A DNA stretch of 20,230 nucleotides from a virus: IMG/VR virus record IMGVR_UViG_3300020469_003314, positions 1 through 20,230 of that record; one strand, given 5' to 3'. Under the pieces are notes generated by a model that worked only from the letters and a program-made list of their open reading frames with translations, did no database searches and was not told where the DNA came from. Each line of letters opens with the position of its first letter. Within the stretch, counting starts at the first letter, position 1. The translations under genes and the position numbers were made by a program. Below, in pieces: positions 1 to 18,632 of this stretch.

Positions 1-289
1 CTTTTGCATCAAGTGGAACATCTTCCGGCCGCATTTGTGTAATGACTGGCCATTCGTCCGAGTACCTTTGATTAAATAATTCCCAGTATGCTTGTTTATC
101 TGGATCCAATGCATTGTCTGGTACAATAGCATCAACAGGACATTCAGGTTCACACACTCCGCAATCAATACACTCCATAGGATTTATAACAAGCATGTTT
201 TCGCCTTCGTAAAAACAGTCTACTGGGCATACTTCTACACAATCCATATGCTTACATTTAATGCAATTATCTGTTACTAGATACGTCAC
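1..289 (-). CDS. fdxA: FdxA-type 7Fe (3Fe-4S/4Fe-4S) ferredoxin, 3' end outside window
   Basis: This is a small soluble electron carrier. 96 codons are visible and the C-terminus runs off the window edge; family members are about 105-110 residues, so only a short tail is missing. The reading begins [13 protein letters not shown], the classic FdxA start. Cysteines lie at 9, 12, 17, 21, 25, 40, 43, 46 and 50. That is the Azotobacter ferredoxin I pattern, in which one set binds a 3Fe-4S cluster and the other a 4Fe-4S cluster. The GTG start shares its first base with the TAG stop of the clamp-loader gene, and a GAGG ribosome site lies five bases upstream inside that gene. The N-terminal match to the family supports this start. 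It appears to be the last visible gene of the operon driven from about 1394-1422. The family call is secure. Its partner is unknown; an electron-transfer role in host metabolism or for a phage enzyme is inference. Confidence 0.93.
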
Positions 290-1203
290 TATAACCTCGC
301 TAGTCTAATAAGCGTTGCCGCTAAGTTAATCTCCGGATCAACTACTAGGGTGTGATCCACTAATCCTTGTTTAATTACAAGCACAGCAGTATCTTGTTTT
401 TCTTCATCTCCAAACAATTCTATATTGTCATACAGCCAACGATAGATATCATCCATTTCTTCTGGACGTACTGCGCCACACAAAAGTTTACGTGCCTCTT
501 GGATTTTGCCTGCCTTGAAAAGCTCAACCATGTCAAGTTTCCAGTCGCTTTCGCCTGTGTCACCTTCGTTTGGTTTTAACAAACTGTTATCTTGTACGTT
601 CATCTGTACTGTGTTTATACACTTACGCAAGTCAGGATATGTTGCTTTTACATATGTATCAAGTGTATCCAAGTCTGGAGTTACACCTTCTGTGATTAAT
701 ATTTCTGCAACTCTTGCTGTAAACTCTGTTTGATCTACTTTAGCAATATGAAAGCCCTGACATCTACTGTGTAGTGCAGGAATAATTTTGTTTGGATAGT
801 TACAAGTAAGTATGAATCTTGCTGTTGTGTGATACTCTTCCATTACACCACGTAGTGCCGCTTGTGCGTTTGGACTCAAGTAGTCAGCTTCATCAAGTAG
901 CACAACCTTAAAGTCACCAAATGGAATCATCTGTACAAAGTTTACAATCTTATCACGTACATCATCTACTGAGTTTGTTCTCGATGCGTTAATCTCTAGT
1001 ATGTCTAGCGGATTAAGATCAAGCTCATTAAACAACAACTTAGCAAGTGTTGTTTTACCAATACCGGCATTGCCACTAAACAGCAAGTGTGGTATTGTTT
1101 GATCTTTAATCCATGTTTTAACTTGGTTACGTTGCGCCTCATCTCTAAACACATAACCGTCTACCGTTTTAGGACGATACTTCTCTACCCATAATTCTTT
1201 CAT
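289..1203 (-). CDS. 44: Sliding clamp loader large subunit (T4 gp44-like AAA+ ATPase)
   Basis: This ATPase opens and loads the phage sliding clamp onto primed DNA for the replisome. It has 304 residues (T4 gp44 has 319). The N-terminal WVEKYRP motif is typical of RFC/gp44 proteins. Walker A is GNAGIGKTT (residues 44-52), Walker B is VVLLDEAD (100-107), sensor 1 lies around TCN (133-135), and the arginine-finger SRC motif is at 146-148. The C-terminal helical collar domain is more divergent. The ATG overlaps the stop of the upstream 55 aa gene (ATGA) and the stop overlaps the ferredoxin GTG, so the three genes look translationally coupled. In T4 the small subunit gene 62 directly follows gene 44; here a ferredoxin does. 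Family assignment is very secure from the motifs. Confidence 0.96.
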
Positions 1204-1367
1204 TTGTTACCTACCATTATTAATATTGCTATAAAGAAAAATGCAAACACGAACACTGGTGCCGCATTTGAAATTTGCTTGGTGCTATTAGGCTCAGGCT
1301 TTACATAATGCCCGCCCATGTAATCTCTATCCCAGGCATCACGTCTTGTATCTTTTTTATTTTTCAA
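1200..1367 (-). CDS. Small single-span membrane protein (55 aa), function unknown
   Basis: This is a 55-codon gene starting at TTG, with AGGAG seven bases upstream. It ends in a TGA that overlaps the clamp-loader ATG. The N-terminal half is charged and hydrophilic (KNKKDTRRDAWDRDYMGGHY), followed by KPEP. The C-terminal half, about residues 36-52, is one strongly hydrophobic helix rich in Phe, Ile and Ala and ending VGNK. An inside-positive N-terminus with one C-terminal transmembrane segment is the likely topology. It is the first gene behind the sigma70-like promoter at 1394-1422, so it would be expressed together with the clamp loader. I do not recognise the family. Its reality rests on the good ribosome site, the ATGA coupling and the lack of any other explanation for the gap. 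Confidence 0.72.
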   Translation of the reverse strand: MKNKKDTRRDAWDRDYMGGHYVKPEPNSTKQISNAAPVFVFAFFFIAILIMVGNK

Positions 1368-1393: not shown

Positions 1394-1422
1394 ATTATAG
1401 CGTATAAACTAATAGAAGTCAA
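1394..1422 (-). promoter_or_regulatory. Near-consensus sigma70 promoter for the 55 aa / clamp loader / ferredoxin operon
   Basis: Reading the minus strand, TTGACT (1417-1422) is followed by a 17-base spacer and a perfect TATAAT (1394-1399). The first gene starts at 1367, with AGGAG between. The box sits just after the stop codon of the BI-1 gene, so it re-initiates transcription for the last operon in the window. It differs from the TATAAATA-type boxes before the structural genes, which suggests early or middle expression by host RNA polymerase. The match is direct; activity is inferred. Confidence 0.8.
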
Positions 1423-1429
1423 GTGTTTT

Positions 1430-2098
1430 TTATTCTCGGTTGCCCATTAAGTGTAATAACATTTGGAATAGGTTTATAAAGTTGAGATACAAGCTCAGAG
1501 CAAATCTTATTCCCATGCTACTATCTTGATATTGTAGGTACATTCTTTTAGCATTTTGAGTATCCCATGCTGTCAATCCTGTAAAGATAAGCACACCTAT
1601 AATACTGATTGCAAATTGCATACCTGTGCTTTGTAAAAATAAGTTTACAACACTAGCAATAATAATTCCAATAAGTCCTACAATAAGAAAGCTACCCATA
1701 CTTGTAAGGTCTTTCTTAGTTGTATATCCGTATAGGCTCGCACCAGCAAATGTTGCTGAGGTTACAAAGAATACCTGCACAATACTATATGCCGTGTATA
1801 CAGCAAATATTGTACTTAGACTTACTCCCATGACTGCCGTAAAGATGTAATAAAATTTTGTTAGAGTATCTTTACTCCAGTTTTGTCCTGCAAAACTATA
1901 GTATAGTATCATACCTAATGGAGCAAGCATAAACAGCCACATAAGACTGCCCATTGCATATAATGCTCCGGTTGAATATGTTAACCATGCAATAACTCCA
2001 CTAACACCTAAACCTGCGGCTGTGTGATTATACATGTTAAGCATAAAATTACGTAGCCCTTCGTCGTAGGCTGTACGTGTTTCTGCAATAGTACTCAT
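1430..2098 (-). CDS. Bax inhibitor-1 family (YccA/YbhL/YetJ-like) multi-pass membrane protein
   Basis: The 222-residue protein contains about seven hydrophobic segments after a short polar N-terminus, as in bacterial BI-1/TMBIM proteins, which are usually 210-240 residues. Family signatures are clear: TSATFAGASLYGYTTKKDL (113-131), GLIGIIIASVVNLF (141-154), LTAWDTQNAK (175-184) and SLYLNFINLF (202-211). The family normally has a buried Asp pair in the last helices (D171 and D195 in B. subtilis YetJ). Here the first is present (D179), but the second position is Asn206. Known relatives leak Ca2+ or, in the case of E. coli YccA, bind and restrain the membrane protease FtsH. A phage copy could act on FtsH or ion balance; this is inference. 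The ATG abuts the MazG stop (TAAATG) and an AAGGAG lies eight bases upstream, so it is co-translated with the MazG-like gene. Confidence 0.92.
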   Translation of the reverse strand: MSTIAETRTAYDEGLRNFMLNMYNHTAAGLGVSGVIAWLTYSTGALYAMGSLMWLFMLAPLGMILYYSFAGQNWSKDTLTKFYYIFTAVMGVSLSTIFAVYTAYSIVQVFFVTSATFAGASLYGYTTKKDLTSMGSFLIVGLIGIIIASVVNLFLQSTGMQFAISIIGVLIFTGLTAWDTQNAKRMYLQYQDSSMGIRFALSLYLNFINLFQMLLHLMGNRE

Positions 2099-2518
2099 TT
2101 ACAGATCTCCTTCTTTTCTGTTTTCTGAATAGTATGGATCAAATTCTCCACCTGGATAACGCTTCTTAAGTTTATTTACATTTTCTGCAATTACATCATT
2201 GGGGTCAATTCCCAATGCACTGCAACTGTTCATCCAGTACCACATAATGTCGCCTAGCTCACGCATAGCATGAAACTGTGTATCTTCGTCCATAGGCTTG
2301 CCTTGGAACACACACTTTTTAATGATCTCCATAAACTCGCCGCCTTCAGCACAAATGCCAACAGCACCTGTCATAAGTTGCGCCATGTTTACTTTCATTT
2401 TACTTTCGGTAGTTTCAATTTCAATTATACGATTATACATCTGCATACTTGATAGTGATTCACCGCTAGTTACTTCTCGGACGAAGTCTTTATATTTGTT
2501 TAGATCAATGTTACTCAA
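2099..2518 (-). CDS. mazG: MazG-like nucleoside triphosphate pyrophosphohydrolase
   Basis: This 139-residue all-alpha NTP pyrophosphatase is predicted to hydrolyse NTPs or dNTPs, or an alarmone, to the monophosphate plus pyrophosphate. The Mg-binding pattern is visible as E58-x-x-E61 (AEGGEFMEIIKK) and E87-x-x-D90 (MRELGDIMWYW). It is followed by the conserved third helix with N113 and K116 and the end LKKRYPGGEF. The single-domain form is common in marine T4-like phages. The frame starts at TTG (2516-2518), eight bases after a weak GAGAAAG site that overlaps the stop of the GroES-like gene. The next in-frame ATG is well inside the protein. It directly precedes the BI-1 gene. Roles proposed for phage MazG include recycling host nucleotides and damping stress signalling; substrate cannot be read from sequence. 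Confidence 0.9.
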   Translation of the reverse strand: MSNIDLNKYKDFVREVTSGESLSSMQMYNRIIEIETTESKMKVNMAQLMTGAVGICAEGGEFMEIIKKCVFQGKPMDEDTQFHAMRELGDIMWYWMNSCSALGIDPNDVIAENVNKLKKRYPGGEFDPYYSENRKEGDL

Positions 2519-2532
2519 TTTATTTACTTTCT

Positions 2533-2916
2533 CTATTGTGCGTTAACAAATGATGACGGATCAATTGTAGCGTGTTCACCGTCGGAATATTCTGCACCTA
2601 TTTGTACATCATCTGGTTTAGTCTCTGAGTATGCTAAAATACTTTCTGCTTCAACCATCCTTATTGTAATATCGTCAAGTTCAACACCTCTTGTCCAACG
2701 ACCATGTTCTACTAAAATCCAGTCTCCTACATTATAGTCATCAATGTTTCTTGGACCTTTATCATAGACTTTACCCCATCTCGGATAAATGCCTCTTGTA
2801 GTTCCGTCATCTGTTTTGATTATCAGTCCGCCTTTAGTAGTCTGCTCTCCAAAGTGCATGTGTGACACTAATACTCTGTTGTTGATAGCCCTAATAGGAC
2901 CTTTGACTTTATGCAA
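2533..2916 (-). CDS. GroES-like co-chaperonin (T4 gp31-type role)
   Basis: The 127-residue protein follows the GroES fold in order: IRAINNRVLVSHM (8-20) matches the first strand, FGEQTTKGGLIIKTDD (22-37) the mobile loop and following strand, TTRGIYPRWGKVYDKGP (39-55) the next strand pair, and NVGDWILVEHG (62-72) the KVGDxV motif. TIRMVEAESILAYSE (84-98) matches the C-terminal strand that ends in DILA. About 28 acidic residues follow that GroES lacks. T4 gp31 replaces GroES so that GroEL can fold the major capsid protein, and the same job is likely here. The start is TTG, eight bases after GGAG; a start at Met20 would delete the first strand, so TTG is preferred. The ribosome site lies in the last codons of the 109 aa gene. 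Confidence 0.85.
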   Translation of the reverse strand: MHKVKGPIRAINNRVLVSHMHFGEQTTKGGLIIKTDDGTTRGIYPRWGKVYDKGPRNIDDYNVGDWILVEHGRWTRGVELDDITIRMVEAESILAYSETKPDDVQIGAEYSDGEHATIDPSSFVNAQ

Positions 2917-2918
2917 TT

Positions 2919-3248
2919 CTATTTCTCCTTTGTAACAAAGTTTCCGTCGTCGTCTTCAACCCATTCGTCTTCTATTACTAATGCATCATTTTCTTCTGCT
3001 TCAGCATCTTTTGATTTTGCTACAGCAAGTTCGTCTGGCACACCTGGATTTGAGTTTTGATAATCGGCTAAAACTTGTTCCCTTGTTTTAATAATTTTGC
3101 CGCCAGGGCCTAATTCATCGCCTCTAGCATTTACTTTTGCATTACCCACTGCCGGAGTAAGCTCATTTTTTTGACGTAGTAAATCCATATCAATGCTTTT
3201 ACCCTGCATCGACTTATATGTTTTACGTCCTACTTGTTTCATTGGCAT
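2919..3248 (-). CDS. Conserved-looking phage protein of unknown function (109 aa)
   Basis: This small hydrophilic protein has a basic N-terminus (KQVGRKTYKSMQGKSIDMDLL), a Gly/Lys-rich centre with ELGPGGKIIKTREQVLADY (46-64), and a very acidic C-terminal tail from about residue 80 (DAEAEENDALVIEDEWVEDD). There is no signal peptide or membrane segment. The ATG has a strong GGAGG seven bases upstream. Only two bases separate its stop from the GroES-like TTG, so the two are probably co-translated. The overall look resembles a conserved protein of T4-like cyanophages and pelagiphages, but I cannot attach a function. The charge asymmetry would suit a nucleic-acid or virion accessory protein, which is a guess. 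Confidence 0.82.
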   Translation of the reverse strand: MPMKQVGRKTYKSMQGKSIDMDLLRQKNELTPAVGNAKVNARGDELGPGGKIIKTREQVLADYQNSNPGVPDELAVAKSKDAEAEENDALVIEDEWVEDDDGNFVTKEK

Positions 3249-3276: not shown

Positions 3277-3807
3277 TTATCTCAAGAACTCACGCCAATC
3301 CAGGTCAAACTGGATTGAATTAATCTTATGCACTCCAATTAAATACAGCACATAACTTGCCACACTTGATCCTCTTCCTACACCCCAAACAATGTCGTTC
3401 TCACGCATAAAGTCTACAAGATAAATCATATAGCGTAATAAGTTGATCATATCACGTTCTTTAAAAGCATCTAGTTCTTCCCATACACGATCTTGTACGT
3501 GTTGTGGACAGGGTGTTTCTACTTTTTGTAGTACATATTCATATACATTAATGGCTTTGTATGCATCAGGCATAAACCATTCACTTTGGCATACACCGTC
3601 AAAGGTCTTTTGGTCTACATCTAATGGGATATATTTCTGTAGTTTATTGTGTCCTTGTAAATCACATACTTCATTAAACTTATCTACATCGTCATTAGCA
3701 TCACACAATACCACGTGAACTTTATCTGCATGACCTGAATAGATCATATCAATTAAGTCTTTATTTGTAAATCGCGGAATACCGAGAGAGTCTGTTTTCA
3801 TAAGCAT
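3277..3807 (-). CDS. C-family DNA polymerase (PolIII alpha, DnaE-like) fragment without catalytic aspartates
   Basis: The last 50 residues of this 176-residue protein match the start of the PolIII alpha palm: a helix (LLRYMIYLVDFMRENDIVWG) leading into VGRGSSVASYVLYLIGVHKI (143-162), then FDLDWREFLR. The equivalent in DnaE is GPGRGSGAGSLVAYxLxIT followed by FDLLFERFLN. In DnaE the catalytic PDxDxDF motif comes shortly afterwards; here the protein stops at FLR with TGA. The first 120 residues are less clear, with a possible degenerate upstream DnaE region. It cannot polymerise DNA alone. It may be a retained accessory fragment, a nucleotide or triphosphate binder (the GRGS loop contacts the incoming nucleotide), or a decoy. 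Start ATG at 3807 has no strong ribosome site; an ATG two codons later is an alternative. There is no downstream continuation in any frame before the next gene. Confidence 0.72.
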   Translation of the reverse strand: MLMKTDSLGIPRFTNKDLIDMIYSGHADKVHVVLCDANDDVDKFNEVCDLQGHNKLQKYIPLDVDQKTFDGVCQSEWFMPDAYKAINVYEYVLQKVETPCPQHVQDRVWEELDAFKERDMINLLRYMIYLVDFMRENDIVWGVGRGSSVASYVLYLIGVHKINSIQFDLDWREFLR

Positions 3808-3816
3808 ACATGTATT

Positions 3817-4050
3817 TTAACTGATATTAATCAGATTGTCAAGAGAATTATCGCCATCATCGTCAATATTTTCTACTGGTTTTGACCGTCTAAGTGCTAA
3901 TTCGTATTTTAGTTCGTCTATTATAACCAACATTTGCGAACGAACGTCTGGATTTTGAGTTTGCCAATATTTTGTTGAAATGCTTGAAAGACGTTCTTGT
4001 AAGTCTGCTTCGGATAGTACTGTAAGATCTTCTAGCAGAGGATGACTCAT
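3817..4050 (-). CDS. Small unknown phage protein (77 aa)
   Basis: This short, mostly helical hydrophilic protein reads MSHPLLEDLTVLSEADLQERL at the start and ends in an acidic stretch (ENIDDDGDNSLDNLINIS). There are no cysteines, signal peptide or membrane span. Its ATG overlaps the stop of the 188 aa structural gene by one base (TAATG), and AGGTGAG lies ten bases upstream in that gene, so it is translationally coupled to it. Nine bases separate it from the polymerase-like gene downstream. It resembles small proteins placed at the end of tail gene clusters in marine T4-like phages. Function is not recognised. Confidence 0.8.
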   Translation of the reverse strand: MSHPLLEDLTVLSEADLQERLSSISTKYWQTQNPDVRSQMLVIIDELKYELALRRSKPVENIDDDGDNSLDNLINIS

Positions 4051-9854: not shown

Positions 9855-10104
9855 GTAAATCAGCCCATCCAGCTGTACTATCATTATTAGCATCTGCAGC
9901 ATAGCCTTGGAACTTTCCTGTTGTGGTGTTGTAAACCATCATGCCAACTACTGGTGTAAGTGCATCTATAGCAGTTTGTGTCAATTGTTGTGGCCCAATA
10001 TATAACTCGTCAAAGTTGTCGTTAATCTTATCAAATGCTGTGCGTAACGGATCGCCATCGCCTTTGTTTACACTTGATCCAATGTTTACAGTTTGCTTAG
10101 CCAT
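9850..10104 (-). CDS. Short tail fibre adaptor protein (84 aa)
   Basis: This 84-residue protein joins two recognisable pieces. Residues 1-35 (MAKQTVNIGSSVNKGDGDPL then RTAFDKINDNFDELY) are the same module that starts the 234 and 2842 aa proteins. Residues 45-83 (AIDALTPVVGMMVYNTTTGK then FQGY ... GWADLH) match residues 468-499 of the 628 aa protein. Its ATG overlaps the stop of the giant gene (TAATG), with GGGAG six bases upstream inside that gene, so it is made by coupled translation. It could cap or connect the giant fibre, or be a minimal fibre whose distal part is supplied in trans by the 628 aa protein. Both ideas are inference from the shared ends. Confidence 0.82.
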   Translation of the reverse strand: MAKQTVNIGSSVNKGDGDPLRTAFDKINDNFDELYIGPQQLTQTAIDALTPVVGMMVYNTTTGKFQGYAADANNDSTAGWADLH

Positions 10105-13100
10105 TACACTCTCCCTACTACAACTTCAACAGTGCCTTTGCCTTCATCGGACTTAGCACCTACTGCTTTACCAATTACTTGGCCAACACCTGGTGAGTTG
10201 TTAACTATTGCGTATCCTGGTATGGCGCTTGTAACCAACATATCTCCTTTGGCTACTTGTCCTAATACCTTACATGGTACACGACCTTGTAAGCCTATTG
10301 CTGTAACATAATTACCTTGTAATGCACTGTTCATTAAGTGTGCTGGATTAGTTGATACTACACCAGCAACTCTTGTATTGCCTTTTGTAGTTGTAACTGT
10401 AACTTCTTCGTCTCCACCAAACACTAGCACCGTTCCTTCGTCGTAGTCTGCATCTGCCAAATAGTTCTCTGCCAAGTCAGCGTATTGTGCTGAAGTTGCA
10501 GTTCCATCAAACACACTAGCATAGACTGTGTTCCATTTTCTAGCTGTGTGACCTATGTTTCTATTGTTTGCAGTTGCGTCTGGTTCAAAAGTACTATTTA
10601 CTCTTGCGTTAAATGTTACTGTTTTTGAAGTTGCATTACCTATTGTAACGCTATCACGTAACACTGATGTACCTTCAACTGTCAATGAATCATTTACATA
10701 AACACCCTGATTTCCTTTACCTTGAAGTGTCAATAAAGTGTTAGTTCCGCTGTATGCACTAATTGTATCAACATCTAAACTGTCAGTAATATTAACATTA
10801 CCTGTTCCGTTACCGCTTAAATTAAGATCGCCATCTGTAGTTAAGCTAGTTACATCATTGACATTTAAGCCCGAGTCGTTTATAGTAGCTTCACTAGTAC
10901 CGTTAGTAACAAACACAATAGTATTTGCAGCACTTTCAGTAAATCCGCCACCTGTACCTAAGCCTATACCTGTACTTGAAGCATCTCGTTCAGTTAGGGC
11001 TTCGATAAAGTTACTGTAAAGCCAATCAGTTGATACAAAGCCTTCTCCTGTGTATGAACTAGCTGTATGGAAGTTACTTTCTGTTGTTTGTCCAGTACTA
11101 CCTACATCTATAATACCCGGGAATTCTGTAACCAAAGATGCACTATCTGTTCCTACTGCATTTAAAATAACAGCCTGACCAGGTGTTTTTAATGTAAGTG
11201 TTGTACCAGTGCCGGTTGTTGTTGCGACTTCGTAAGTATCAGCACCGCCTAGTATCAATCCTTGCGCCCTAATATTACCATCTGCTTGTGTTTTTACGAT
11301 CCTACTATTTTCACCAGTTGTAGTAACTTCAGTAGTACTATATGTATTTGCAGCTGTTCTAATAAGAACTTCATCGCCACTGTTTCCAAAAGCACCTAGT
11401 TCACTGTCTCTAACTGCGCCACCTTCTGATAAAACTGTATCAAATGATATTGCACTTACAGCACCATTACCTGCAGCACTTCTACCTAACACTGTATCAG
11501 TAGCCACCCATTGTAGTTTTACAGGATCAATACCTGTTGCTATACTTGTACTAGTTTGTAATTCTACAAAACCACTAGTGTGTGTAAATTCAGTATTTTT
11601 AAATGTAGCAATACCTAAGTCACTTTGTGCTATGCCTGAAGCATTTGCCCTTGTGCCAGCAGTGTTCATTGCAAGTTTACTTTGTGCAATAGCTGCTGTA
11701 GGACTTACATCAGCGTTGATTAAACTATCTGCTTCGTACTGTAAATTATATTCTGTACCTACTGATGTTCTAGTAACAGTTACATTTATATCACTACCAG
11801 TTGCTTCACTGGCATGTGTTATTTCAGGAAACGGTCCGCCTACATCTGCTTGTAGTGATGTAGTAAGTCCAACTGCCTGAGCAACACCATTATAAATTGT
11901 ATCACTATCTGGATCAAAAGTTCCACTACCTATAGTATATACAATTTTTCTAATACTTCCAAACTGTTCATCAGTTAGTGTGCTTATTTCAATTATTGTA
12001 CCTGTTGCACTAGGAGTTGAAGGATCATTTTGTATTGTGTTTCCAATTGCAAACGTTCCTCCTGTTTCAGGCTCTGTATATATAATTTGCTTGCCACTGA
12101 ATACTACTAGTTCATTTTGGCCAACAGTTCCTACAGACGTATCACGTAGTTGTTTTACAGTTGCAAATGCGTTTGCATTATCGTCAACATAGTTTTTGTT
12201 TGTAGCATCGCTTCCGCTTGCAGGCAATGCAAGGTTTTGAATTTTGTTTGAATTTAAATTTAAGTTGCCTTCCATTGGACTTAGTCCGTTTAATGGAACA
12301 AATCCTGTACCAATTCTATTTGAAGCACTTGTAATTTGTGCTCCTGACTTAACATTAAATCCTAGTACTCTGTTGATGTATCCGCCAACTGCTTTTTCTG
12401 TAGGTGAAGCCTGTCCTGAATCATCAGCAAAACTATCGTCTGCACTAAATTCATTTATTGTAACACCCTTTTTAAATCCAAGAGCGTTGGCATTGGACAA
12501 TCCAATTTCACCAGCAAATGTAATATCACCAGTTGCTTGGTCTACACTAAAGAATTTTCCTACACGGAAGAAACCATTTTGATCTGTACTAACAAAGAAC
12601 ACTCGTCCTTTTCGTCTTTCCCAAACTTGTGCAGTAGATGCTGTTTCCGAATCTGTATAGAAATCGGCTAAACTATTTACAGGCTGTCCTAATATAACAT
12701 TAGGATAGTTAGAATCATTAAATGATCCTGTTCCTATTTGTGTGAAGTCGTGGCCGGTTGCTCTCATCAGCGAAATAGCTACTGTTATTTCACTTGTCGC
12801 TCCTGTTGCTAAACCTGCAGTAATAATTCTATCTACGGCTGGTATACCACTATTCAATCCGGAGCCGCCGTAACCGCTATTAATATTTGTTAATGCGACA
12901 TCAACAAATGTCACATATGCCCAACTAGTTAGATTTATTGTTACAGGCACACTGTTAGCACCTAATGCTCCACTAGTGGTTCCTGTCCATGAATCAGTTG
13001 AATTAAAGCTACCAGACACATTTTCTAATTCTATTGTACTACTAGTTACAGATGCATGTACAACACCAGTTGCGCCTGTATTAGCCTGTGTTATAGTCTC

Positions 13101-16100
13101 ACCTGCTGTAACACTTATGCTACCAGTTACTGTAAATTCTGCAACAGGCGTGTAATTTGTTACACCATGTGTTTTTCCGTCCCATAAGAAACGCATACCG
13201 CCACTAGCACTATATCCAACATCTCCTGGATAAAGACCTGCTGTTGTGCTACTATCTCTTGTAACACGTTCTGTATCATCAAATGCGTTGTTTGAGCTTG
13301 CTACTAATTGTGTTACAGCAAGTTTTGTATCACCTTGTGCTGAACCATACCCACCTGCCAACTTAGTTGTATTTACAGCTAAATCAACAAAATCATATCC
13401 TACTTCAAATGTTGTAAGAATTTCATCTGTTGCTAGGTCCTGACTAAAGCTATCTTTGTTACTGAAAGCAATACTTCTATATGTTGTATTATCACTTTCG
13501 TCAAAGTTAATAGCTGTACTTGGTCTAGTTACAAGAGCTGAAGGATCACCTACACTATCAAATATATGATTAAAGCTATTTCTGTATTCTATAATTGTAT
13601 TATTGGCTACGGTTGCTTTTAGTACGCCAAAGAAGTCTAATGCACTAACATCATCTGCTTTAAGATCTAACTTGTATACAAAATTATTATGTACTCCTGC
13701 TACTGTTCCAAAAATTGTATCTACATCAATTGTTAAATCATTAGTAGGTGAACTACCTCCTAACAAACTACCACTAATTGTAATAGTATCAGTAGTAGTA
13801 TATCCACTACCGGGAGTTGCTATAGCTACAACTGCCGCTCCTGAGGCGCCAATTACACCCACACCTGTTATTGTTACATTAACAGTAAGACCTGTACCGC
13901 TTCCTGAGTTGTTAGTTGCAATTCCTGCAAATGTTCCTGTGCCTGCTGTAGTACCTGCTAGTGTTCCGTTGTCTAAAGCACTAACACCGGTAACAATTAC
14001 ATCCCCGGCTTCGCCTGATACCCCGTCACTGTCCACATCACTTAGATTTGTAACTGTTGAAATAACATAATTAAGTGTACCTGTTGCTCCGCCATGATCA
14101 ATTGTAATTATGCTATTAGCACTTGGAGGATTTTTTAAATCAGTTACTGTAATACTAGGATCATCTAGTGCGTTAGTATATGTTCCTGTAGTAAATGCCT
14201 TTGCTGGCTGTACCATGTCGTTCTTAAGCGTTACTTGATCAGGTATCTCGTTTGGATCAGCTCCTTCAGCAATTAAGCCAAAGTTTCCATAACCGTTAGA
14301 GCAGTTTAGTCCTCTAATTTCAGAACCATTGTTTGCATACATAGCTGTTTGACAGTAGTATGTAAATGTTGAAACTTGTTCTGAGAACGCAGCGTTGTTT
14401 GCAATAAGACCGTAACCTAGGTCGTTAATTTGTGTAAAGTCGTTTGCTAACATACTTCTGTTACCAGCTGTTTGTAAGAATATATCCCTCTCTACAGACG
14501 AATCATCAAACTGTTCAATGTCATATCCTCTACCATCGTTTGAATTAGCATCTAGGTATAGTGTTGCTGTACCTTGTCCTTGATCGTAATCTGAAATAGC
14601 GTTTACCTGATAACGTCTGCCTTCTACATAAAATGGACATGGAAGTTCAGGCGGGCGTAATCTTAACCCTTCTCCTAAATCACTTTGTACTGTAATTTTA
14701 AATCTGTTTGCTGTTTCTGGTTGCCCTGTAACTCTTGTTGGTAAGTTACCAACATACGCATCAACATACATACCACCTGCAAACGTTTTCTGGTTTATAC
14801 TCTTTGAGAAACTAGATGCAGTTTGTATATACGGCGACTTAGTTAGAACCTGTCCTTGCGGATCAAGCACACACATAAATCCGCCATGTCCTTGTACAGT
14901 TACGTTACGAATAATTGTAGCATCACTCATTAAGAACACATCCATAGCGTCATTACGTTTAGGTGGATTGTATTGCGGATCAAATACAAATGTAATTTTA
15001 TCAATCAACTGCCCAACCACTGCCGCTGTGCCCGACTCACCTGCACCTAAGGATATATCCACAGGTTCAGCTGCAACAACTGCTGCCGCACCTGCTGTAT
15101 ATTCTCCGAATGTAATTGCGTTAGTTGCTGCACTTACAAAGGTGTGTGCCGATGTTTCAGATGACGTTCCTACATTTACAGTAATTGTATTGGATGTTTT
15201 AGCTGTAATTTCTAGTTTAGTTTGGAATGCCGGATCTGTTGATCTAGGAAAAGTAACTGGTGTTACGTTTCCGTCAGATGCACAGGTAAACGTAAATCCG
15301 TTTAGTTCAATTTCAATGTATTGTCCTACTGTTAAACTGTGTGAGCCAATTGTTGCGACTAATACACCTGTAACAGGATTATATGTTGCGTTAGTAGGTG
15401 TAAATTGTGCATCTACTACAGTGTAATTTGGAGCAACGCCTGTTAACAATGCATTTGAGAGTGTACTAATGTTATCAATTGCTGCTTCAGTAGCAATTTC
15501 TTGTGTACTATCACCTAATTGTGTTAGATAATCTCCGTTAGTTAGTAACGAATGATACGAACCTTGTACTTCCAAAGTCATAACTTCGCCGCCATCACGA
15601 AGGTCTTTAATTAGTGCATCTACAATAAGTTTTGTATCTCGTCTACATTTTGCTTCAGAATATGTTAATGAAGGGAATCTATCACTGATGTATCTAATTG
15701 TTTCTTCAACAATGTAATCTTTGTTTTCTAGAATAATATTACTAGCAGTTGTATAACTTCCTACGTTAGTAACTGTTGGTCCTAAATTTAATGCTTTTCC
15801 GCCTTCTGATAGATAATGATAGCCAAATTTACCTTGTGATACTCCATCTTGATTAAAGAATTCTGTACCGCCGTTGTTGATTGTTAATCCATCAAATGTA
15901 TTATCCCTATAAAAATATAAGTTTGCCCATTTACTTTGAGATACTCTTGGAATCCTACTATCTGTTTCTGTTTTTGGTTTGATAATTACACGTCTAAATT
16001 CATCACCTTTAAGTGATACATTGTTCGACAATCTAATTGGATAGTCTTCCTCGTATATACCTGTTTCGACCATAATAGTAACTTGTTTTTTAGCAACAAA

Positions 16101-18632
16101 GTTACCATACTCTAGTGGCTCTTCTGGTTCAAAATCTTTTGCACCTAATAAATGTACTTGGAATACAGTCGGACCGGGTTCGTTTGAACCTGTTTGCGGG
16201 TCATTCGCAGATTCTGCGCCTACATCGTTAGTAAAGCTAACAATCTGACCAATTGCTTCTGAACGTTTTCCTCTTATCACTTTACCAGGTAATGCATCAG
16301 TATTGTTAGGATTTGTTTGATCTGTATAAGAAGCAGCGCCATTTGTTACAACAATTTTATATGTGCTTCCATATACTATATCACCACCTGCATCTAAACC
16401 GCTTTGTATAATAGTGTTAACAAGATTAAACTTATCTTGGATTGCTGTCACAGCGTTTGCATCTGCATCAAAAGAATTATCAATTACTGATGGTACACTG
16501 TCTACACCTAATGAACCACTAGTTGATCCTGTGAATTCATTTCCTGTGTTAAAAGTTCCGGTAGTTTGTTGTAATCTTATAGTCGATCCGGTAGTTACAC
16601 TTGCTACAACTACGCCAGTTGCACCACTACCTGCTTGTGTAAGTGTTTCTCCTTGCACCACAGTTATATTTCCAGCAGTAGTAATTGTAAAAATATTTCC
16701 TAGGTCTAAGTATTGGTCTTCTTCAATTTGATAGACTTGCCCTAGTATACCAGCTGTAAATCCTGTAAATGTTGATGTGTTATATGGCGTAATTAAATTA
16801 ACATCGTTATATAATTCAAAACTTTGCGATCCAGTAACCTTTACATATTTTTTAGTATTGTTTGTAATTTCTACCATACCTTGTATGTCACGGAATACAA
16901 CAATATTTTTATCAACTAAACCGTGTGCAGTGCTTGTAGTTACTGTCGAAATAGCACCTACTGTAATACCCGTTATAGTTTTTTGGTTGAATAAGTCATT
17001 TGTTAAAAGTGCTGTTGCTATATTTCTTGCGGCAACAATACCTGCTACAGTTTGTGATAACTGTGTAGTAATTGCAAGCCTAGCACTGACACCAGAATAG
17101 TAACTTTCAGCAGCTTGTCTTGTGAGATAGTTTGCTGTTAGTCCTCTGTTAACATCTAAAGCAATAGCATCAATGATCAATCCTGTGTCTCTAGCACATT
17201 TTGCAGAGTTGTAAGCAAAGTTAGGGAAAGTAGTATTAATATATCCAACTACCTCAGCCGCTATGTAATCTCTGTTATTATCTAATAGTTTACGTGCTTG
17301 TTCAAAAACAGGAACATCGACGTCTGCATTTATCACAACAGCATCTTTACTAAAGGTACTGTGTGTTAGTGTCTGCATATAATTGCCAGGCTCTTTAGAA
17401 GCACTTCTAATTAATTCTTCTGCTCTTTTCGCTGCAGCATTAATTGTTTTGAATGCATATGTTAATGATGTACCTTCTTTACCAGCCGGCACACCTTCCA
17501 TTAAGTCGTTGCCCTTTGTACTAACAAATAGTGCTTCTGGTGAGCTATATGCTGTGTTATCAACATAATATTTAGATGCAGCTTGCAAATCTTCTACTCC
17601 ATTAGGAGCACCTTCACCGGCTAATTCACCAGGATGATCATTCAGGTACAACGCACCTGTCATTGTGTCACCTTGTCTACGTACTGTAGAAGTTCTTGGC
17701 ATGCCTGTATCAGATAAGAAGTTACCAGATAGAGTATTGTCTAAAGCAGCATCTACAATAGTATGCGTATCATCAGCCGCAATAACTCCTGATGGACTTA
17801 TTTTGAAAGAATCAGCATCTGACTGGACATCAGTAGTTGCATATGCTTTATTTGATTCTGAATACAAATAAAGCCTTGTGGGAGATACTACTCTAAGATA
17901 ATAAGTTGTTCCTGAAACTAAATTATTAGGGTCAGTATCTTCAGCATTAAAAGTTACAGCAGTTCCATTAGCACCACTTTCTAATCCGTGTCCACCGGAT
18001 GTTAGAGCCTGTGATACATTGTAATGAGATACAATCTCTATGCTATCGTCGACATACTGTGCAATATTCCAAGTGTATTGTAATTTTCCAGATGGTTCAT
18101 CTGCTACACGTAATGGCAACCCTGATGTAATATATCGTTGGTCTGCATAACCTTTTGTAATAACTAAGTCATCTACAGTCAACCCTGATAAGTTATCGTG
18201 GGTGGTGTTTAATCTTTCTGCTTCTATACTACTAATACCTACGTTAGCAATACCAAAGCCTCCTGCATCTAATGGACCTCCTAGTGTAGGACTTAGGTCA
18301 TCGCTCATCTTTGTAAACGAACTTGATATAATTAACTTTCCTGCAGTATCATAACTAAATGTAATAGTGTCTGTGGCTCCACCACCTAAAGCACTATTTG
18401 ATGCAAGTGTTACTAGTTGTACAAGTGTACCAGCATCATTTATTAATGGAATAGTGTTAGGTGTTAATTCGTCTGGTGTATCACTTAATGTGGTAAAAGT
18501 AATCTGTCCACCAACACCAAATACTGCGTATAGTTCAGTAAAGTTCTCATTGGATTTACGAAACGATTCTCTAATACTATCGCCAGTACCGTCATTTCCC
18601 TCTACGCCAATGTTAATATCTTGTTTTGCCAT
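10104..18632 (-). CDS. Giant tail fibre / beta-helix adhesin (2842 aa)
   Basis: This is the largest gene here, 8.5 kb. Residues 1-40 carry the shared INIG ... NDGTGDSIRESFRKSNENFTE module. Phage-fibre units ending in YAD or YVD occur near 117-160, 330-357 and 2122-2157. From about 365 (VFVSTKGNDLMEGVPAGKEG) to about 1465 the sequence looks like a right-handed beta-helix of the pectate-lyase type, with KTINAAAKRAEEL near 400, ETGIYEEDYPIRLSNNVSLKG near 855-875, VTVQGHGGFMCVLDPQG near 1240 and GYGLIANNAAFSE near 1400. Two segment types are duplicated. The last 150 residues (AENYLADADYDEGTVLVFGG, VAGVVSTNP, GRVPCKVLGQVAKGDMLVTS) resemble an end domain found on phage and bacterial surface proteins, possibly an intramolecular chaperone. 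No catalytic residues can be assigned. Its ATG abuts the IscA-like stop, with GGAG six bases upstream. Confidence 0.9.
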   Translation of the reverse strand: MAKQDINIGVEGNDGTGDSIRESFRKSNENFTELYAVFGVGGQITFTTLSDTPDELTPNTIPLINDAGTLVQLVTLASNSALGGGATDTITFSYDTAGKLIISSSFTKMSDDLSPTLGGPLDAGGFGIANVGISSIEAERLNTTHDNLSGLTVDDLVITKGYADQRYITSGLPLRVADEPSGKLQYTWNIAQYVDDSIEIVSHYNVSQALTSGGHGLESGANGTAVTFNAEDTDPNNLVSGTTYYLRVVSPTRLYLYSESNKAYATTDVQSDADSFKISPSGVIAADDTHTIVDAALDNTLSGNFLSDTGMPRTSTVRRQGDTMTGALYLNDHPGELAGEGAPNGVEDLQAASKYYVDNTAYSSPEALFVSTKGNDLMEGVPAGKEGTSLTYAFKTINAAAKRAEELIRSASKEPGNYMQTLTHSTFSKDAVVINADVDVPVFEQARKLLDNNRDYIAAEVVGYINTTFPNFAYNSAKCARDTGLIIDAIALDVNRGLTANYLTRQAAESYYSGVSARLAITTQLSQTVAGIVAARNIATALLTNDLFNQKTITGITVGAISTVTTSTAHGLVDKNIVVFRDIQGMVEITNNTKKYVKVTGSQSFELYNDVNLITPYNTSTFTGFTAGILGQVYQIEEDQYLDLGNIFTITTAGNITVVQGETLTQAGSGATGVVVASVTTGSTIRLQQTTGTFNTGNEFTGSTSGSLGVDSVPSVIDNSFDADANAVTAIQDKFNLVNTIIQSGLDAGGDIVYGSTYKIVVTNGAASYTDQTNPNNTDALPGKVIRGKRSEAIGQIVSFTNDVGAESANDPQTGSNEPGPTVFQVHLLGAKDFEPEEPLEYGNFVAKKQVTIMVETGIYEEDYPIRLSNNVSLKGDEFRRVIIKPKTETDSRIPRVSQSKWANLYFYRDNTFDGLTINNGGTEFFNQDGVSQGKFGYHYLSEGGKALNLGPTVTNVGSYTTASNIILENKDYIVEETIRYISDRFPSLTYSEAKCRRDTKLIVDALIKDLRDGGEVMTLEVQGSYHSLLTNGDYLTQLGDSTQEIATEAAIDNISTLSNALLTGVAPNYTVVDAQFTPTNATYNPVTGVLVATIGSHSLTVGQYIEIELNGFTFTCASDGNVTPVTFPRSTDPAFQTKLEITAKTSNTITVNVGTSSETSAHTFVSAATNAITFGEYTAGAAAVVAAEPVDISLGAGESGTAAVVGQLIDKITFVFDPQYNPPKRNDAMDVFLMSDATIIRNVTVQGHGGFMCVLDPQGQVLTKSPYIQTASSFSKSINQKTFAGGMYVDAYVGNLPTRVTGQPETANRFKITVQSDLGEGLRLRPPELPCPFYVEGRRYQVNAISDYDQGQGTATLYLDANSNDGRGYDIEQFDDSSVERDIFLQTAGNRSMLANDFTQINDLGYGLIANNAAFSEQVSTFTYYCQTAMYANNGSEIRGLNCSNGYGNFGLIAEGADPNEIPDQVTLKNDMVQPAKAFTTGTYTNALDDPSITVTDLKNPPSANSIITIDHGGATGTLNYVISTVTNLSDVDSDGVSGEAGDVIVTGVSALDNGTLAGTTAGTGTFAGIATNNSGSGTGLTVNVTITGVGVIGASGAAVVAIATPGSGYTTTDTITISGSLLGGSSPTNDLTIDVDTIFGTVAGVHNNFVYKLDLKADDVSALDFFGVLKATVANNTIIEYRNSFNHIFDSVGDPSALVTRPSTAINFDESDNTTYRSIAFSNKDSFSQDLATDEILTTFEVGYDFVDLAVNTTKLAGGYGSAQGDTKLAVTQLVASSNNAFDDTERVTRDSSTTAGLYPGDVGYSASGGMRFLWDGKTHGVTNYTPVAEFTVTGSISVTAGETITQANTGATGVVHASVTSSTIELENVSGSFNSTDSWTGTTSGALGANSVPVTINLTSWAYVTFVDVALTNINSGYGGSGLNSGIPAVDRIITAGLATGATSEITVAISLMRATGHDFTQIGTGSFNDSNYPNVILGQPVNSLADFYTDSETASTAQVWERRKGRVFFVSTDQNGFFRVGKFFSVDQATGDITFAGEIGLSNANALGFKKGVTINEFSADDSFADDSGQASPTEKAVGGYINRVLGFNVKSGAQITSASNRIGTGFVPLNGLSPMEGNLNLNSNKIQNLALPASGSDATNKNYVDDNANAFATVKQLRDTSVGTVGQNELVVFSGKQIIYTEPETGGTFAIGNTIQNDPSTPSATGTIIEISTLTDEQFGSIRKIVYTIGSGTFDPDSDTIYNGVAQAVGLTTSLQADVGGPFPEITHASEATGSDINVTVTRTSVGTEYNLQYEADSLINADVSPTAAIAQSKLAMNTAGTRANASGIAQSDLGIATFKNTEFTHTSGFVELQTSTSIATGIDPVKLQWVATDTVLGRSAAGNGAVSAISFDTVLSEGGAVRDSELGAFGNSGDEVLIRTAANTYSTTEVTTTGENSRIVKTQADGNIRAQGLILGGADTYEVATTTGTGTTLTLKTPGQAVILNAVGTDSASLVTEFPGIIDVGSTGQTTESNFHTASSYTGEGFVSTDWLYSNFIEALTERDASSTGIGLGTGGGFTESAANTIVFVTNGTSEATINDSGLNVNDVTSLTTDGDLNLSGNGTGNVNITDSLDVDTISAYSGTNTLLTLQGKGNQGVYVNDSLTVEGTSVLRDSVTIGNATSKTVTFNARVNSTFEPDATANNRNIGHTARKWNTVYASVFDGTATSAQYADLAENYLADADYDEGTVLVFGGDEEVTVTTTKGNTRVAGVVSTNPAHLMNSALQGNYVTAIGLQGRVPCKVLGQVAKGDMLVTSAIPGYAIVNNSPGVGQVIGKAVGAKSDEGKGTVEVVVGRV
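12936..16652 (-). repeat. Duplicated 57-residue GETxTQ module in the giant fibre
   Basis: One copy lies at 16482-16652 (residues 661 on) and one at 12936-13103 (residues 1844 on). They read GETLTQAGSGATGVV ... NEFTGSTSGSLGVDSVP and GETITQANTGATGVV ... DSWTGTTSGALGANSVP. Identity is high for such distant copies in a fast-evolving fibre, pointing to internal duplication or a shared domain acquired twice. Confidence 0.85.
15588..17267 (-). repeat. Duplicated 43-residue helical module in the giant fibre
   Basis: Copies lie at 17139-17267 (residues 456-498) and 15588-15716 (residues 973-1015). They read YIAAEVVGYINTTFPNFAY then KCARDTGLIIDAIALDV, and YIVEETIRYISDRFPSLTY then KCRRDTKLIVDALIKDL. 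The predicted helix pair with a conserved KCxRDT motif is out of character with the surrounding beta-rich sequence. Confidence 0.85.

Follow-up and report, generated by a model that had tools for sequence, protein, structure and literature searches.

A YbhL-type BI-1 membrane protein carried beside an NTP pyrophosphohydrolase in a lineage of large phages

Introduction

BI-1/TMBIM proteins regulate cell death and ion balance in eukaryotes and in the viruses of eukaryotes. A gene that seems to encode such a protein lies in a virus record from IMG/VR (IMGVR_UViG_3300020469_003314, of which we analyzed one stretch of 20,230 nucleotides, "the window"). What is this protein, and what might it do for a phage? 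A sequence-only reading of the window had described it as a BI-1/YccA-like protein in which an asparagine (Asn206) replaces a family aspartate, and had proposed that the viral copy lost a regulated ion leak and became a modulator of the protease FtsH. In the titles and abstracts of the literature, we found no description of BI-1 from a bacteriophage.

Results

A phage member of the BI-1 family

The open reading frame (Table 1) begins with ATG, and the plus strand across the same interval has stops throughout. Residues 16–218 match the Pfam family Bax1-I (PF01027; E = 6.8e-58, 196 bits), and the match covers positions 1–207 of the 207-position profile. There was no match among the PHROG families. 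An AlphaFold model computed from an 87-row alignment of phage and cellular proteins has a mean pLDDT of 94.2 and superposes on YetJ from B. subtilis (6nq9_B) with TM scores of 0.79/0.84 at 2.5 Å. At E ≤ 0.001, 10 of the 10 fold matches to this model are YetJ entries. (A first model, from a 27-row alignment, superposed on YetJ at 9 Å rmsd and was dropped; weak fold similarity to giant-virus and cytomegalovirus proteins was confined to this poor model.)

Table 1. Features in and around the BI-1 locus of the window
Feature	Position	Strand	Evidence
Clamp loader (T4 gp44-like), downstream border of cargo region	289..1203	-	phrog_168
Small ORF, 55 aa, one hydrophobic segment, after BI-1	1200..1367	-	sequence
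Sigma-70-like promoter TTGACT-N17-TATAAT, just past BI-1	1394..1422	-	near-consensus; kept in L002, L007, L014, L018, L045
BI-1/TMBIM (YbhL-like) membrane protein, 222 aa	1430..2098	-	PF01027, model vs YetJ, dN/dS
Codon of N206 (YetJ D195 equivalent)	1481..1483	-	N/D alternate in phages and cells
Codon of D179 (YetJ D171 equivalent)	1562..1564	-	D in 290/292 aligned sequences
MazG NTP pyrophosphohydrolase	2099..2518	-	PF03819 E = 9e-8; PHROG 229 MazG-like E = 4.5e-46
GroES-like / head morphogenesis protein, conserved backbone	2533..2916	-	phrog_931, phrog_3188
Conserved 109-aa backbone protein (g109), function not known	2919..3248	-	phrog_14844
Short DNA polymerase III alpha-like protein, backbone	3277..3807	-	PF07733, phrog_11127
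Sigma-70-like promoter TTGACA-N17-TAAAAT, 11/12	3814..3842	-	consensus match; region total not above shuffles

Which branch of the family does the protein belong to? It is 39% identical to YbhL of E. coli (E = 2e-46), about 34% identical to YetJ in a local alignment, and 33% identical to YccA over 111 residues only (E = 5e-14). YccA, a modulator and substrate of FtsH, is likewise an inner-membrane protein of the BI-1 family, but it sits on a distant branch. We therefore kept the BI-1 half of the earlier description, which both PF01027 and the YetJ fold support, and rejected the YccA-like half, because YbhL is closer and because YccA has neither of two aspartates discussed below. Both YbhL and the alphaproteobacterial BI-1 proteins share full-length homology, a similar length, and the motifs GLTAxDTQ and LYL[ND]F[IV]NLF with the window protein. 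Among the matches listed, the nearest cellular relatives are all alphaproteobacterial and are at most 55–57% identical, and the window protein adjoins alphaproteobacterial BI-1 proteins in the tree. What sets it apart from cellular YbhL-like proteins is that it is phage-encoded, falls in a clade of its own with signature residues (e.g., T26, G71, W74, F82, A120, and A183), and adjoins an NTP pyrophosphohydrolase (NTP-PPase). vGAAP, the cytomegalovirus US-family proteins, and giant-virus BI-1 are also virus-encoded members of the superfamily, but their hosts are eukaryotic and their sequences are not close to that of the window protein. Overall, the window protein is a genuine phage copy of a YbhL-type BI-1/TMBIM seven-helix inner-membrane protein.

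The phage proteins form a monophyletic clade of 66 sequences, with support of 100/99 in a 67-row IQ-TREE tree and 0.99 in a 289-row FastTree tree. Between the window gene and four relatives that are at least 91% identical, dN/dS is 0.03–0.05, which indicates that the gene is under purifying selection; values in more distant or other pairs are 0.05–0.13. The phages that carry the gene form a lineage known from uncultivated sequence only. Large phages of this lineage have retained BI-1 for a long time, and their proteins make up a new group, specific to phages, within a known family.

Matches in named phages (unannotated Enterococcus, Listeria, and Salmonella records) and in gut contigs may derive from host DNA, and we left them out. 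Similarly, five short, unannotated "phage" records with BI-1 (OR846624, PQ520055, OR847411, OR848970, and OR851037) may reflect host contamination.

BI-1 probably joined a replication backbone as cargo

In forty-odd related loci, the genes mostly follow the order g188, g77, polymerase-like, g109, GroES-like, (NTP-PPase), BI-1, clamp loader. The clamp loader of the window is most similar to those of PA5oct, MIJ3, and Paride (Wroclawvirus; 55%) and then to that of Atu_ph07. These phages share the replication backbone (the polymerase-like gene and the clamp loader, with the GroES-like gene in Atu_ph07), but they are without BI-1: in Atu_ph07 and Paride, which have the same backbone, BI-1 is absent at that position, and we found no BI-1 elsewhere in PA5oct, MIJ3, Paride, or Atu_ph07. 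Given the BI-1-free backbones of Atu_ph07 and Paride, the gene is probably cargo that was inserted between the gene for the GroES-like protein and that for the clamp loader.

The DNA polymerase III alpha-like protein of the window (176 aa) stands alone, and many large phages, Atu_ph07 and Paride among them, have its gene at the same position. Between BI-1 and the clamp loader, six loci (L008, L010, L013, L015, L034, and L042) carry variable cargo, which includes a hydrophobic protein of 52–72 aa (GIGTTGATGI...) and a DexA-like 3'-5' exonuclease (PF16473); the cargo of L034 also includes a QueC-like protein. Family scans of three other neighboring proteins (as 90-residue starts or whole) and of the small ORF gave no match.

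Farther along the window, on the minus strand, are a very large gene for a probable tail or fiber protein (2842 aa, 10104–18632), which is followed by several smaller repetitive proteins, and a gene for an IscA/HesB-like Fe-S assembly protein (PF01521, 18633–19133). Apparent Fe-S genes also flank BI-1 in L059, L062, and L366.

How might BI-1 be transcribed? The promoter-like sequence upstream of the polymerase-like gene is a candidate start for an operon that ends with BI-1. The second promoter, just past BI-1, has a similar AGGAGTTTTCTTTTG-type leader in all five of the loci in which it is kept, while the gene that follows it varies (the small ORF, the exonuclease, or the clamp loader). Because a promoter is kept just after BI-1, the operon probably ends with this gene.

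A recurrent pair with NTP pyrophosphohydrolases

The sequence-only reading had BI-1 coupled to MazG, and this holds: mazG lies directly upstream, its stop codon abuts the ATG of BI-1 (GAAGGAG ... TAA ATG), and the ribosome-binding site of BI-1 falls inside the end of mazG. To describe the pair across the clade, we considered the 64 distinct loci with enough upstream sequence. BI-1 directly follows a MazG gene (PF03819) in 25 of them and a PRA-PH-like gene (PF01503) in 20; both families are all-alpha NTP pyrophosphohydrolases. At another 12 of the 64 loci, an NTP-PPase gene is not adjacent but lies within about 1.7 kb, and the remaining 7 have neither MazG nor PRA-PH-like nearby. The pair also persists where the surroundings do not. 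In the rearranged loci L023, L028, L037, L043, L051, and L331, MazG and BI-1 are still adjacent (in L047 they are slightly apart), while the GroES-like gene or the clamp loader gene lies elsewhere or is not visible in the vicinity.

Clustering the immediate neighbors of 170 distinct viral BI-1 genes without a preset family gave the same two partners: PRA-PH-like proteins were the largest cluster (45) and MazG the second (26), in viral sets that, as for the other pair counts, were retrieved by motif. In 25 of the 45 cases, the PRA-PH-like gene is beside a BI-1 gene from outside the window's clade. Several of these outside pairs have divergent BI-1 proteins and no shared backbone, and two pairs are in reverse order. 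With the phage proteins as queries, we found no MazG or PRA-PH-like homolog near cellular BI-1 genes (0 of 80 loci). Part of the pairing may be an old neighborhood, as Atu_ph07 has mazG near the backbone cluster although BI-1 is absent there. Three loci (L325, L334, and L352) have the PRA-PH-like/BI-1 pair without the window's backbone, and by eye they also have ClpP-like protease genes about 3.4 kb upstream of BI-1.

What would the partner enzyme do? Earlier, MazG had been taken as a stress-linked gene, and this part of the reading is weak, as the preferred substrates of a cyanophage MazG are dGTP and dCTP and the enzyme leaves (p)ppGpp uncleaved (PMC6850273). By analogy with that preference, the NTP-PPase partner probably acts on deoxynucleotides. 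We propose, tentatively and as less likely than not, that NTP-PPase and BI-1 are a phage-specific two-gene module, recurring in unrelated large phages, that would act as one inner-membrane unit for host takeover or counter-defense.

A narrower reading is that the pair is an anti-abortive-infection module, in which BI-1 would blunt host suicide effectors that damage membranes and the NTP-PPase would remove defense nucleotides or signals. The recurrence of a compact two-gene unit in unrelated contexts fits this reading, as does the protection from death that BI-1 proteins give to cells in eukaryotes and bacteria. Yet the pair lies among replication and nucleotide genes, not in a recognizable anti-defense island, and large phages of this kind hold many host-takeover genes. 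We consider this reading unlikely. Even less credible, to the point of being highly improbable, is that BI-1 is a passenger: a copy of a host housekeeping gene that does nothing particular for the phage. The family is an ordinary cellular one, and the gene is absent from the named phages with the same backbone, as a passenger might be; against this are the dN/dS values (0.03–0.13 overall), the 66-member phage clade, the conserved position, and the retained coupling to an NTP-PPase.

Asn and Asp alternate at position 206

YetJ, which has a solved structure and a pH-sensitive Ca2+ leak, has the same fold as the window protein and the same first aspartate. In alignments to the solved YetJ chains (numbering in 4pgr chains is native +3), D179 of the window protein corresponds to D171 and N206 to D195. 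As the sequence-only reading had it, D179 is retained, in line with nearly all the aligned sequences (Table 1), and N206 stands where both YetJ and YbhL have Asp. The C-terminus (GIRFALSLYLNFINLFQMLLHLMGNRE) has no other Asp near N206 that could replace the missing one. Among the E. coli MG1655 paralogs, YbhL has D/D at the two columns, YccA has E/S, and YbhM has neither Asp. YccA is divergent here, as had been said, but a loss shared with YccA is not the pattern, given its Glu and Ser.

We then asked how the column varies in phages and in cells. Within the window's clade (at least 56% identical), 57 of the 63 distinct scored sequences have Asn, so other phage copies do share the substitution, and six have Asp (L330, L331, L356, L375, L397, and L434), with the same backbone genes around them. 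A set of 80 viral relatives is also mostly Asn, with the proviso that one of the search patterns for it was an Asn-bearing peptide. Scans of viral contigs, one for each motif, returned both forms among the matches listed, in a ratio that is not a frequency. Asn is common in cells, too, and many alphaproteobacterial YbhL-like proteins carry it. In an alignment with the 80 closest cellular proteins among the matches listed, Asn is found in 39 rows (the window's own included). Evenly drawn alphaproteobacterial genomes gave 19 Asn and 110 Asp motifs among the matches listed, and in evenly drawn Pseudomonadota genomes the Asn motif was found in 17 genomes versus 48 for the Asp motif.

On trees built without the N206 column, the state switched at least 23 times (289-row FastTree tree) or 13 times (67-row IQ-TREE tree). 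Inside the phage clade, a well-supported Asp group is nested among Asn sequences, which is a reversion at the same locus. A D-to-N change that is special to the virus is ruled out by the cellular Asn forms, the frequent switches, and this reversion; the statement that the change is common applies to the cellular family. Across the sequences compared, Asn206 is one of two normal states of this column and not a viral loss.

Would the substitution abolish a regulated leak? This does not follow. The equivalent change in camelpox vGAAP (D219N) still gives a channel (79 pS versus 29 pS for the unchanged protein) and removes its anti-apoptotic activity, whereas mutation of D213 in human BI-1 (hBI-1) cuts or destroys function (PMC4416878). 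In TMBIM proteins, TMBIM5 among them, mutations that alter the charge at this Asp lower transport, abolish it, or make the protein unstable (PMC9206080). With vGAAP D219N conducting and the hBI-1 and TMBIM5 results pointing to loss, the sign of the effect of D-to-N cannot be inferred. The proposal that the Asn marks a viral copy turned from leak to FtsH modulator gets the column right and the prevalence of Asn in the clade right. It has against it that Asn is common in cells and switches often, that phages revert to Asp at the same locus, that vGAAP keeps its conductance, and that YccA, the known FtsH modulator, lacks both aspartates and is on a more distant branch. We consider it very improbable.

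A second charged position also varies. In TM2, 106 of 111 sequences in a cellular set keep a basic residue that belongs to the closed-state latch. About half of the members of the phage clade, with the window protein among them, appear to lack this residue (in a gappy alignment). No Arg or Lys aligns at or beside R60 of YetJ: Q72 is there and K76 is further on, in a gappy stretch. Because so many phage proteins appear to lack this residue, the function of BI-1 may have shifted in phages. There was no clear link between N206 and loss of the TM2 residue, and every cellular Asn form keeps it.

These data bear on another explanation, in which phage BI-1 is a cation leak or exchanger in the host inner membrane. 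By letting Ca2+, K+, or H+ through, it would keep ion balance and pH fit for replication, with Asn206 giving a freer-opening or pH-insensitive channel. The YetJ fold of the model, the apparent lack of the latch residue, and the channels formed by vGAAP and hBI-1, with the larger conductance of vGAAP D219N (PMC4416878), all point this way. The effects of charge-changing mutants in TMBIM proteins (PMC9206080; hBI-1 D213) point the other way, and the free alternation of Asn and Asp, with both at one phage locus, speaks against selection for altered gating. A leak of some kind is a real possibility, if one that we would not expect to prevail.

Discussion

We favor, as the rather probable overall explanation, that the window encodes a phage YbhL-type BI-1 that is the last gene of its operon, is coupled to an NTP-PPase, and alters host membrane proteostasis. 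In this scheme, BI-1 would be expressed from the end of a replication-region operon together with the NTP-PPase. The NTP-PPase would trim nucleotides during host takeover, and BI-1 would insert in the host inner membrane and change proteostasis there. Most likely it would do so at the FtsH/HflKC protease, which it would occupy in the manner of YccA and the mitochondrial protein TMBIM5, with or without a cation leak.

YccA binds FtsH and TMBIM5 binds AFG3L2 (PMC9379554), so two very different members of the BI-1 family both modulate FtsH-type proteases. Deletion of BI-1 in Brucella raises HflK/HflC protein (PMC7876416), and the related phage MIJ3 encodes its own FtsH (PMC6892783). We found no FtsH or Band_7/HflKC genes on 23 contigs of BI-1 phages, most of which are fragments, and a target would therefore have to come from the host. 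In the literature, we found no report of a YbhL-type protein that binds FtsH. That phage BI-1 modulates FtsH-type membrane proteolysis is plausible, at somewhat under an even chance. Modulation of FtsH, a cation leak, and counter-defense can overlap.

To judge from titles and abstracts, this conserved phage gene had apparently not been described before. The pairing of NTP-PPase and BI-1 in phages, of which we found no report either, is the part most worth following: the module, if true, spans two enzyme families and several BI-1 lineages. The N206 and D206 forms at one phage locus are a natural set for testing the role of the second Asp. More broadly, the phage BI-1 clade offers a route into how phages handle host membrane proteases or ion balance.
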